A stretch of DNA of 64,000 nt, taken from Cytophagaceae bacterium (GTDB taxonomy: Bacteria; Bacteroidota; Bacteroidia; Cytophagales; Spirosomataceae). Location of the stretch: assembly GCA_027486845.1 (NCBI GenBank), contig JAIXOL010000018.1:1-64000 (forward strand). The letters are read 5' to 3'. Below, in pieces: positions 59,294 to 62,075 of the stretch. Under the pieces are notes generated by a model. The model searched no databases, had not been told where the DNA came from, and was given only the letters and a program-made list of their open reading frames with translations. How positions within the stretch are numbered: the stretch's first letter is position 1; each line of letters starts with the position of its first letter. The position numbers and the translations under genes are program-made.

Positions 59294-59938
59294 ATGGCGG
59301 ACAAATTCCAAAATAAATATCGCATTCCTTCGGCAAGACATCCCAACTGGGATTATGGCACAAATGGGGCATATTTCATAACGATTTGTACAAAAAACCG
59401 ACAATATTTTTTGGGAGAATGCGAAAAAGGCAAAATGAAATTATCGACTTTAGGGGCAATTACACAAGGTTTTTGGTACGAAATTCCAAAACATTTTCCT
59501 TTTGTTGAATTGGGTGAATTTGTGGTTATGCCTAATCATATTCATGGTGTTTTGATTTTGAATAAAAATGGTTTTGATGAAAATATTGAAACTATAGACA
59601 TAATAGAACCCATCGACCCCGTAGAGACAGGGCATTGCCCTGTCTCTACCACCGAACACGTTTCTACCAATAATAATGATAAAACCATTGGTCAAAAACG
59701 ATTTCGGAACCAAGGAAAAAATACGGTTTCGTCAATTATTGGTTCATACAAATCAATTTGTACAAAACATATTCATACCGCATTTCCAACAATGAATTTT
59801 GAATGGCAATCACGTTTTTGGGATAATATTGTTCGTGATGATGAGGCATTTAACACCATTAGCCAATATATTGTCAATAATCCTATGAATTGGGAAGATG
59901 ATAAATTTTTTGGAGAAGAAACAGATAATCCAATGTAG
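59294..59938 (+). CDS. REP-associated tyrosine transposase (RAYT) with a REP inside its frame
   Basis: 214 residues. HUH motif in VVMPNHIHGVLIL (His82-x-His84) and the nucleophilic Tyr192 in ISQYIVNNPMNW. The REP at 59621-59649 is read in frame as residues 110-119 (VETGHCPVST), between the HUH motif and the Tyr. A second REP copy (59935-59963) overlaps the 3' end; its TAG is the gene's stop codon. Both catalytic motifs are intact. It is a different RAYT branch from those at 1 and 1126. Confidence 0.92.
   Translation: MADKFQNKYRIPSARHPNWDYGTNGAYFITICTKNRQYFLGECEKGKMKLSTLGAITQGFWYEIPKHFPFVELGEFVVMPNHIHGVLILNKNGFDENIETIDIIEPIDPVETGHCPVSTTEHVSTNNNDKTIGQKRFRNQGKNTVSSIIGSYKSICTKHIHTAFPTMNFEWQSRFWDNIVRDDEAFNTISQYIVNNPMNWEDDKFFGEETDNPM
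59621..59649. repeat. REP-3 copy 1, inside the RAYT reading frame
   Basis: Palindrome with arms GTAGAGACAGGGCA and TGCCCTGTCTCTAC around a single T. Read in frame it adds about 10 residues to the transposase. Confidence 0.9.
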
Positions 59939-59963
59939 AGACAAGGCAATGCCTTGTCTCTAC
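59935..59963. repeat. REP-3 copy 2, at the RAYT stop codon
   Basis: Palindrome with arms GTAGAGACAAGGCA and TGCCTTGTCTCTAC around a single A; matches REP-3 copy 1 with compensatory changes in both arms (GG/CC to AG/CT). Confidence 0.9.
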
Positions 59964-60000: not shown

Positions 60001-61401
60001 ATGTCAGCACCAAAATCATTATTTGACAAAGTATGGGATGCCCACGTCGTTCGTAAAATCGAAGACGGCCCCGATGTTTTTCTTATTGACCGCCACTTCA
60101 TTCACGAAGTAACGAGTCCAGTTGCCTTTTTAGGTCTTGAAAGCCGTGATTTAGGCGTACTTTTCCCTAATCGTACTTTCGCAACTGCCGACCATAATAC
60201 ACCAACAATTAACCAACATTTACCAGTTCAAGACCCACTTTCGGCCAATCAGCTGAAAGCTTTGGAAACAAATTCGGCTAAATATGGCATTTCTCACTGG
60301 GGATTAGGTCACGCAAAAAATGGTATCGTTCACGTAGTTGGACCAGAAAATGGTATTACTCTCCCAGGAATGACCATCGTTTGTGGTGATTCTCATACTT
60401 CTACACACGGTGCTTTTGGTGCAATTGCCTTCGGAATTGGTACTTCTGAGGTAGAAATGGTACTTTCTTCGCAATGTATCATGCAGCCAAAACCAAAAAA
60501 AATGCGTGTAACAATTAATGGTAAATTGGGTAAAGCTGTTACTCCAAAAGACGTTACTCTTTTTATTATTTCAAAACTTTCGGCGGCAGGTGCAACTGGC
60601 TATTTCTGCGAATATGCGGGCGATGTTTTTGAAAACATGAGCATGGAAGGACGTATGACGGTTTGTAATATGTCAATCGAAATGGGTGCGAGAGGTGGTA
60701 TGATTGCTCCTGACGAAACTACTTTCGCTTACTTAAAAGGCAGAGAGCAAACACCAAAAGGTGAGGCTTGGGAAAGAGCTTTGGCTTACTGGAAATCCCT
60801 CAAAACTGACGAAGGAACAGTTTTTGATATTGAATATAGCTATGATGCGGCCGAAATTGAGCCACAAATCACTTATGGAACAAACCCAGGCTTGGGTACA
60901 GGTATTTCACAAAATATTCCTCAAGCTGCAAATGTACTTGATGGTGCTGCTTCTTATGCAAAATCATTAAACTACATGGGCTTTGCCGAAAACGAGCAAA
61001 TAATCGGCAAACCAATTGATTATGTTTTCTTGGGAAGTTGTACAAATGGTCGTATAGAAGATTTTCGTGCTTTTGCTTCAATCGTAAAAGGACGTAAAAA
61101 AGCTGATAACGTAACTGCTTGGTTAGTACCAGGTTCGCATATCGTAGAATCTCAAATCAAAGAAGAAGGTATCTTAGATATTTTGACTGAAGCAGGATTT
61201 GCTTTGCGTCAACCAGGTTGTTCGGCGTGTTTGGCAATGAATGATGATAAAATCCCTGCTGGAAAATATGCAGTTTCAACATCAAACAGAAACTTTGAAG
61301 GTCGTCAAGGACCGGGTGCAAGAACACTTTTGGCTTCTCCATTAGTTGCAGCAGCAGCGGCGGTGACTGGAAAAGTTACTGATCCTCGTACAATGCTCTA
61401 G
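60001..61401 (+). CDS. leuC: 3-Isopropylmalate dehydratase, large subunit
   Basis: 466 residues. Aconitase-like features: [57 protein letters not shown], and the three 4Fe-4S cysteines in FLGSCTNGR (about 346) and [11 protein letters not shown] (about 406-409). It works with LeuD on 2- and 3-isopropylmalate in leucine synthesis. The RAYT and its REP lie 38 bp upstream. leuD, usually adjacent, is 681 bp away. Confidence 0.97.
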
Positions 61402-61590
61402 GCTTTATGCTTTACGCTTTATGCTTTCGCATTTTTTAGAAACAAAATAAAAAAACAAAAGCATATTGCTTACAGCAGTAAAAGACAAGAGATTTTAGAA
61501 AATATGCTTTATGCTTTATGCTTTACGCGTTTTTTAGAAACAAAATAAAAAAATAAAAGCATATCGCCTAAAGCCTACAGCCTAAAGCAT
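61402..61590. repeat. GCTTTATGC-family repeats with a tandem duplication, between leuC and the four-helix-bundle gene
   Basis: The spacer reads GCTTTATGCTTTACGCTTTA, then TTAGAAACAAAATAAAAAAA, then AGCATAT; these recur about 98 bp later, and GAGATTTTAGAAAATA, the start of the next gene, occurs at 61489 and again at 61601. This is a tandem duplication (98-112 bp with an internal indel) that copied the first codons of the four-helix-bundle gene. Confidence 0.75.
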
Positions 61591-61596
61591 TAAAAT

Positions 61597-61953
61597 ATGA
61601 GAGATTTTAGAAAATACGAAGTTTGGCAGTTATCACATTCTTTAGCTTTAGAAGTTTATTCACAAACAATAAACTTTCCTAAAGTCGAGCAGTATGGAAT
61701 TACAAGTCAGTTAAATAGAGCAGTAGTTTCTATCCCTACAAATATTAGTGAGGGGTGTGGTAGAAATTCAGATGCCGAATTCCATCGTTTTATTCAAATA
61801 TCTCTTGGTTCTGCACATGAGGTTGAATATCTTTTGCAATTATCTCTTGATTTAAAATTTATTGATTTAGAAAAGTACAAATTATTAGACGCACAAGTGA
61901 ATTTAGTAAAGCAAAAACTATATCATTTAGCACAAAAGCTAAATAGCAAATAA
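61597..61953 (+). CDS. Four-helix-bundle protein (23S rRNA intervening-sequence type)
   Basis: 118 residues. MRDFRKYEVWQLSHSLALEV, IPTNISEGCGRNSDAEFHRF and SAHEVEYLLQLSLDLKF are the signature of this family (TIGR02436-like), which includes proteins encoded in 23S rRNA intervening sequences and the Avd proteins of diversity-generating retroelements. Its role is unknown. It stands alone in the leuC-leuD gap, with GCTTTATGC-family repeats on both sides, and was probably inserted as a mobile unit. Confidence 0.92.
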   Translation: MRDFRKYEVWQLSHSLALEVYSQTINFPKVEQYGITSQLNRAVVSIPTNISEGCGRNSDAEFHRFIQISLGSAHEVEYLLQLSLDLKFIDLEKYKLLDAQVNLVKQKLYHLAQKLNSK

Positions 61954-61964
61954 TTTTTTCAGAT

Positions 61965-62075
61965 GTAAGCATTAAGCTATACGCTTTATGCTTTTAAAGC
62001 AAAACAACCTATAGCATCGGCTTAGGTTAAAAATAATAAAAACAGCCTATAGCATAAAGCCTATAGCGTAAAGCA
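61965..62075. repeat. GCTTTATGC-family inverted repeat upstream of leuD
   Basis: Left arm TAAGCATTAAGCTATACGCT with TTATGCTTTT; right arm AGCCTATAGCATAAAGCCTA with TAGCGTAAAGC. The arms are inverted copies about 50 bp apart, with another CCTATAGC/GGCTTAGG pair between. Confidence 0.75.

Follow-up and report, generated by a model that had tools for sequence, protein, structure and literature searches.

That a REP can lie in frame inside a RAYT gene is already known, this being a published trait of TnpAREP subclass 2.4. The subclass was defined by Quentin et al. 2018 and, according to the main text of that work, is abundant in Cyanobacteria and Bacteroidetes and is accompanied by double-foot REPs, with an in-frame REP between HUH and Y described as predominant within the subclass and unique to it (PMC6006769); a further mark of the subclass is an insertion of 8 aa where helix alpha-B ends. 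The region of the insert was modelled there as a peripheral extension which probably has little impact, and the entry '(4)' in a table of the same paper we have taken to be RAYT group 4. In-frame palindromes have also been described in coding regions elsewhere, namely the intragenic GTAG/CGTC REPs and the RPEs of Rickettsia (Di Nocera et al. 2013, PMC3733652); in the cited passages these lie in other genes, many of them for replication and repair, whereas the host gene considered here is the probable cognate transposase itself.

With regard to recognition, the REP bulge is contacted in the E. coli TnpAREP by one residue of alpha-3, the conserved DNA-binding helix, and the cited passages suggest that in the other enzyme group, too, REP stems may be bound by alpha-3 and the part that follows it (PMC8266576). 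Corneloup et al. 2021 proposed that the two enzyme groups have co-evolved with their REPs, and for the enzymes of perfect-palindrome REPs (group 3) the same passages present no structural data (PMC8266576). In the present work we describe a RAYT gene with a perfect palindrome in its reading frame, together with relatives from two genome samples. The main text of PMC6006769 (sections 12-14 and 23, and passages) contains no relation between REP core and protein segment, no block exchange and no REP-to-REP deletion, and it is these three features that, judging from the sequences, would go beyond the published in-gene REPs, within a limited literature search.

The RAYT gene and its two REPs

The gene lies in the window, by which we mean the whole 64,000-nucleotide stretch of contig JAIXOL010000018.1 (Cytophagaceae bacterium) that was analysed. 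The features referred to below are as follows.

59294..59938, + strand: RAYT / TnpAREP gene, open frame of 214 aa (ORF, PF01797, NF047646, dN/dS)
59447..59518, + strand: residues 52-75, end of the helix before the HUH strands; first segment covarying with the REP core (partial r)
59537..59545, + strand: HUH motif H82-I83-H84, from the sequence; H82 and H84 invariant in alignment A1
59567..59713, + strand: variable loop, approximately residues 92-140, host of the REP (AlphaFold2 pLDDT below 50)
59621..59649, no strand: in-gene double-foot REP, in frame as VETGHCPVST (palindrome in sequence)
59629..59743, + strand: block differing as a unit between Emticicia alleles, from the REP core to the first half of helix C
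59681..59776, + strand: residues 130-161, the motif before helix C (RFRNQGKNTVS) and helix C; main segment covarying with the REP core
59867..59869, + strand: predicted nucleophile Tyr192 in YIVNNP, invariant in alignment A1
59935..59963, no strand: downstream REP, with bases 2-4 as the TAG stop (palindrome in sequence)

The encoded protein is Y1 transposase-like and contains NHIH at residues 81-84, WQ at 171-172 (W171-Q172) and YIVNNP with Tyr192. The NH[IFV]H, WQ and YIxNNP motifs are shared with subclass 2.4, as are a variable insert between beta-3 and helix C (here residues 92-140), double-foot REPs near the gene, and a REP in frame between HUH and Y (PMC6006769, main text); the placement of the window RAYT in the subclass rests on these motifs and this architecture. 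Against PF01797 (Y1 transposase, Pfam) the protein scores 25.4 bits, above the cut-off of 23, and against the NCBIfam model NF047646 (REP_Tyr_transpos) it reaches 57.3 bits, below the cut-off of 80 (E 1.6e-15), in two stretches, presumably divided by the loop insert. Comparison with the allele L045 gave a dN/dS of 0.07 (145 codons outside the loop). In the structure model (mean pLDDT 67.6, nine sequences), a helix occupies residues 145-163, while residues 92-140 have no confident structure and are predicted to be disordered. By Foldseek, the fold matches that of the E. coli TnpAREP (PDB 4ER8, E 4e-5), which also shares HUH and Tyr. The E. coli system differs in having a bulged REP and a C-terminal tail, whereas in the window the palindromes are perfect and footed at either end, and the REP is carried in a long loop.

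The fold is likewise shared with TnpA of IS608 and ISDra2 (IS200/IS605), enzymes that also carry HUH and Tyr. Unlike the IS200/IS605 elements, the window RAYT shows no sign of an insertion sequence, with one copy and a locus that is fixed across the Emticicia loci seen; a mobile insertion sequence was ruled out by the one match in the genome and by an AraC-RAYT-leuC neighbourhood common to those loci. No second match to the protein was found at E 0.001 in the 82 contigs of the genome, in which PF01797 has eight matches. We consider it probable that the protein is an HUH/Y1 nuclease of TnpAREP subclass 2.4, present as a single copy in this genome, whose own ORF contains its cognate REP and whose reader and substrate are jointly exchangeable. 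Elsewhere in the window, a second RAYT-like ORF (1126-1707, + strand; NHIH...YIHQNPVRAG) has no internal palindrome and is flanked by 95-nt direct repeats at 1007-1101 and 2180-2274 (91%), with a partial inverted copy at 1723-1782. Between leuC and leuD, a TATGCTTTATGC-like repeat family (61395-62067) surrounds an ORF at 61597-61953, the 5' end of which is partially duplicated at 61458-61504.

The in-gene REP, GTAGAGACAGGGCATTGCCCTGTCTCTAC, is a perfect 29-nt palindrome encoding residues 110-119, between the HUH motif and Tyr192, and the downstream REP, GTAGAGACAAGGCAATGCCTTGTCTCTAC, is a palindrome that overlaps the RAYT stop codon; both bear the double foot GTAG...CTAC. The earlier note had reported the two as copies of one repeat, REP-3, the first read in frame between HUH and Tyr and the second supplying the TAG stop, and both palindromes lie exactly where it placed them. 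It had also described the copies as differing by compensatory changes. The palindrome is indeed kept, but only one pair has changed (G-C to A-T), in addition to the unpaired central base. The earlier note had made its reading depend on REP-3 being found elsewhere in the genome, and it is: there are five copies with exact 8-nt arms, and one more with three mismatches. Two of the five are the REPs of the window RAYT, a third begins 19 nt past an apparent gene stop (judged from sequence), and the remaining two are 81 and 60 nt past the 3' ends of ORFs. Genomes contain few REPs that have the same outer arm as the window's: they were present in 28 of the 36 genomes searched, at 1 to 28 copies each; the sole exact copy is inside the RAYT gene in two of these genomes (G062 and G339), and in another (G206) the single exact copy sits elsewhere.

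In-gene REPs in the wider family

The first sample consisted of 392 genomes from across the phylum together with earlier searches, with loci taken from the top of the match list; 125 distinct full-length ORFs were found among the matches listed, and 124 of them, the window's included, were parsed. Full length here denotes an uninterrupted frame across nearly the whole profile, and includes the allele L046, which is frameshifted near its start. A second, fresh sample of 396 genomes gave 86 loci and 76 new ORFs. A palindrome with a stem of 10 or more was present in the loop in 88/124 members of the first sample and 57/76 of the fresh one, against 0/124 and 0/76 in one base shuffle, and a chance palindrome is ruled out by these counts. 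For both samples together this gives 145 of 200 distinct full-length members (shuffled, 0/200), with 55 of 200 having no such palindrome in the loop. Palindromes outside the loop numbered 10 in the N-part (shuffled, 1) and 4 in the C-part (shuffled, 4) of the first sample (124 members), and 5 and 1, respectively, in the fresh sample (76 members). The other Y1 transposases of the window's genome form a weak control, as the motif filter gave an ORF in one of the eight loci, which was palindrome-free.

Frame was scored for 69 in-gene REPs: 58 are read in the GTA-frame, 11 in the one after it and none in the TAG-frame, as expected if stop-free frames alone survive. The peptide as the conserved feature is ruled out, given that the REP occurs in two frames and with other residues in orthologues. 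The earlier note would have been refuted by orthologues that encode the same ten residues with no REP; this does not hold, L045, an orthologue with another REP core, reading VETLQCNVST at this site. Furthermore, the window and the allele L009 are identical at 29/29 REP bases, in contrast to 98/192 third positions outside the REP, which argues that what is maintained or renewed is apparently the DNA rather than the peptide. Among 43 downstream REPs whose core matches the in-gene one, the foot's TAG is the gene stop in 4 (that of the window, and L144, L219 and L252 from other genomes), and a degenerate foot provides a TAA stop in L052 and L053. A REP-derived stop as a device special to the window gene is unsupported, since it recurs at separate loci; such a TAG stop is what the GTAG foot yields in one frame of three, uncommon but recurrent. 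In L046, the transposase frame stops 15 nt before the downstream REP.

The core of the in-gene REP was compared with that of flanking palindromes at loci having both, a match being agreement of the inner ten arm bases at 0.9 or more. Matches were obtained at 27/47 loci in the first sample (1000 permutations: mean 2.8, maximum 8) and at 19/34 in the fresh sample (1000 permutations: mean 1.8, maximum 7); the flanking palindromes were counted without a REP screen, so some non-matches are other hairpins. Matching REPs lay within 100 nt of the gene in 18 of 31 cases upstream and 29 of 43 downstream, and 19 of the 43 downstream were within 26 nt of the stop, at or after it. This last position, and the strong RNA hairpins predicted for the window (-25.1 kcal/mol, z -6.9, for the in-gene REP; -22.6 kcal/mol, z -7.2, for the downstream one), are what might be anticipated of an mRNA or expression device, in which the transcript's hairpin would slow translation by ribosomes, or be bound by the enzyme in autoregulation, and the 3' hairpin would act at the message end. 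A plain hairpin, however, need not match the flanking REPs or the reading segments described below, and we regard a device of this kind as very improbable.

The proximity of matching REPs to the gene also bears on why a REP is present in the loop at all, for which the main rival is passive insertion: REPs would hop locally, the disordered loop would tolerate them, and their repeated arrival would be functionless. The predicted disorder of the loop (median length 44.5 aa in 124 members) is in keeping with this, as is the presence of more than one loop palindrome in 26 of 145 members. At the Labilibaculum-type loci L053 and L052, near 3300, two and one in-gene REPs, respectively, occupy one and the same site, as though an entire REP unit had been gained or lost. 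Nonetheless, a passive landing site alone leaves unexplained the tracking of the core by residues 130-161, and more weakly by 52-75, as against the rest of the protein; furthermore, Emticicia alleles with different cores share one site, and the switch between them reaches coding sequence past the REP. We hold passive insertion to be unlikely as the whole account, with the proviso that the rival explanations weighed here are not mutually exclusive. As a separate observation, in L012 six near-identical truncated REPs lie in a row, 33-38 nt apart, downstream of a RAYT whose in-gene copy is perfect.

Covariation of the REP core with two protein segments

For the covariation scan, REP-encoded residues were masked and the identity of the remaining protein was held constant; both segments were picked on the first sample, and the partial correlations are modest overall (0.2-0.4). 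In the first sample (73/88 loci usable), core similarity correlated with residues 52-75 and 130-158, with partial r up to 0.34 each, whereas scan windows clear of both segments did not exceed 0.122 and shuffled arms did not exceed 0.126 (20 shuffles). This signal holds when each 70% or 60% cluster is represented by a single locus, and with 50% clusters treated likewise (16 loci) the first segment alone stands out. The fresh sample (40/57 usable) gave a peak of 0.41 for the second segment, 0.21 for the first and 0.27 for the scan window at residue 88, and in the combined samples residues 52-75 had a partial r of 0.28.

A comparable picture was obtained from trees, which were restricted to loci whose REP belongs to one of five core classes (37/73 loci in the first sample and 24/40 in the fresh). 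Class changes numbered 16 on the tree of the rest of the protein and 5 on that of the two segments in the first sample, 11 and 5 in the fresh sample alone, and 24 and 4 in the pooled 61 loci (segments 52-75 and 130-161), 4 being the minimum. Among pooled trees of single segments, residues 130-161 alone required 7 changes, 52-75 alone 18 and 1-51 26; a pooled tree of residues 76-88 with 162-207 required 23, and shuffling gave approximately 34. Motif patterns, which were drawn up after both samples were in view, paired with core class without exception at the loci where both were recognised (33 loci of the first sample and 23 of the fresh). A recognised motif with an unclassed core was seen at 5 and 6 loci, respectively, a classed core without a motif at 4 and 1, and neither at 31 and 10.

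It is reasonable to postulate from these comparisons that residues 130-161, helped by 52-75, contact and read the core of the REP stem. If helix C here is the counterpart of alpha-3 of the E. coli TnpAREP, a reader at 130-161 would fit the alpha-3 contact with the REP in that enzyme. The suggestion of the earlier note that the enzyme's likely substrate is part of its own gene is strengthened by an in-gene core that matches the flanking REPs and tracks probable DNA-reading segments.

From the in-gene REP to the helix-C anchor that follows it the median distance is 24 residues, and this closeness, along with the Emticicia block that spans both REP and segment, allows for mere hitchhiking, whereby the REP and residues 130-161 would be inherited together and the segment would not be a reader. 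A scan using flanking REPs only (63 loci) nevertheless recovers the main signal, with peaks of 0.32 at residue 145 (145-153) and 0.20 at residue 61 and lesser rises at residues 4 (0.17) and 168 (0.23), and class changes by flanking REPs only (29 loci) were 14 for the rest of the protein versus 7 for the two segments. Moreover, the non-adjacent residues 52-75 contribute, whereas the HUH strand, which is nearer the REP, gave little signal in the first sample, a contrast that is weaker in the fresh one. On balance, hitchhiking alone appears quite unlikely, and we retain the two segments as the probable readers.

Probable exchange at the Emticicia locus

The window probably belongs to the genus Emticicia, named records of which have the RAYT and the same neighbours, an AraC-type gene and leuC, as far as the contigs reach. 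At the same alignment site, the window, L046, L009 and L010 have the core AGGGC, and L045, L054 and L049 the core GTTGC, of which L047 has half. At 32 informative sites in succession, spanning gene nt 336 (in the REP) to 450 (in helix C), the window and L046 stand against L045 and L054, while the flanking informative sites (8 before the block and 8 coding sites after it) group the alleles otherwise; beyond the stop, 2 of 5 informative sites are again of the block pattern. L045 and L054 agree at 77/79 positions after the REP versus 166/195 before it, and the window and L054 at 47/79 after versus 188/202 before. The grouping of sites and these agreement counts together argue that the REP core and the reading segment moved as one block, in a mosaic that is a single case of four alleles (window, L046, L045 and L054), two of which, L046 and L054, are frameshifted. 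Outside the Emticicia alleles no donor of the GTTGC block was found, the best matches being of approximately 80% across a 50-nt stretch or 93% across one of 29 nt. Downstream of L054, beside its GTTGC-type in-gene block, is a decayed REP that resembles the window's AAGGC type, as if orphaned by the switch.

The best reading of these sequences is that a single gene links the substrate to its reader, and that the two may be exchanged together. The loop, predicted to be disordered, seems to accept any stop-free peptide, and with such tolerance the feature that is kept would be the palindrome in the DNA and not its translation. By analogy with the E. coli enzyme, the protein may bind a single-stranded hairpin through the GTAG foot and helix C, with residues 130-161, assisted by 52-75, reading the stem core. 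With the REP so shortly before the helix-C anchor, one short tract holds both the substrate core and the main reader, and recombination could switch the two at once, for which the Emticicia mosaic is the candidate example. Flanking REPs would then follow the new core or decay, the enzyme would cut its own REP, and linkage within one ORF would favour the arrangement.

A stronger version, which we put forward tentatively and at somewhat less than even confidence, is that the REP and the next coding segment form an exchangeable lock-and-key cassette, in which the 12-residue motif and helix C (with 52-75) are a code for the stem core and specificity may be switched in one step. The pairs proposed with equal reserve for this code are ISPKxGSxS with GTTGC, RFxNxGKNxxS with RGGCA, FGPQSKNLA with GCNATG or GCAAAA, and NPMxxxNxS with GCGATT. 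If true, the cassette would show how enzyme and substrate change together, otherwise a chicken-and-egg problem in the evolution of REPs. As to how transposases distinguish perfect-palindrome REPs, two short segments emerge from the covariation as the probable readers, and a natural pair with 82% identity is on offer for a segment swap.

Apparent deletions between REPs

In L010 and L049 the gene ends shortly past the in-gene REP, the far side of which is joined to the sequence that, in the window and L046, follows the downstream REP. Apparently, a deletion between the in-gene and downstream REPs has left one REP and removed the Tyr half. Of 17 N-half fragments listed, six were kept once duplicates, contig ends and two weak fragments (L027 and L029) had been set aside: L010, L049, two in L172, L173 and L126. 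Five of the six end at a REP or REP remnant (by eye), the exception being L126, and the weak fragment L029 also breaks without a REP; the palindrome filter alone flagged only L049 and its copies among the N-half fragments. Such fragments suggest that paired in-gene and 3' REPs are a liability to the gene that carries them. L047 ends inside a REP near a contig end. In L172 (251-1090, reverse complement), two RAYT N-terminal halves stand in tandem, each ending at a REP or remnant.
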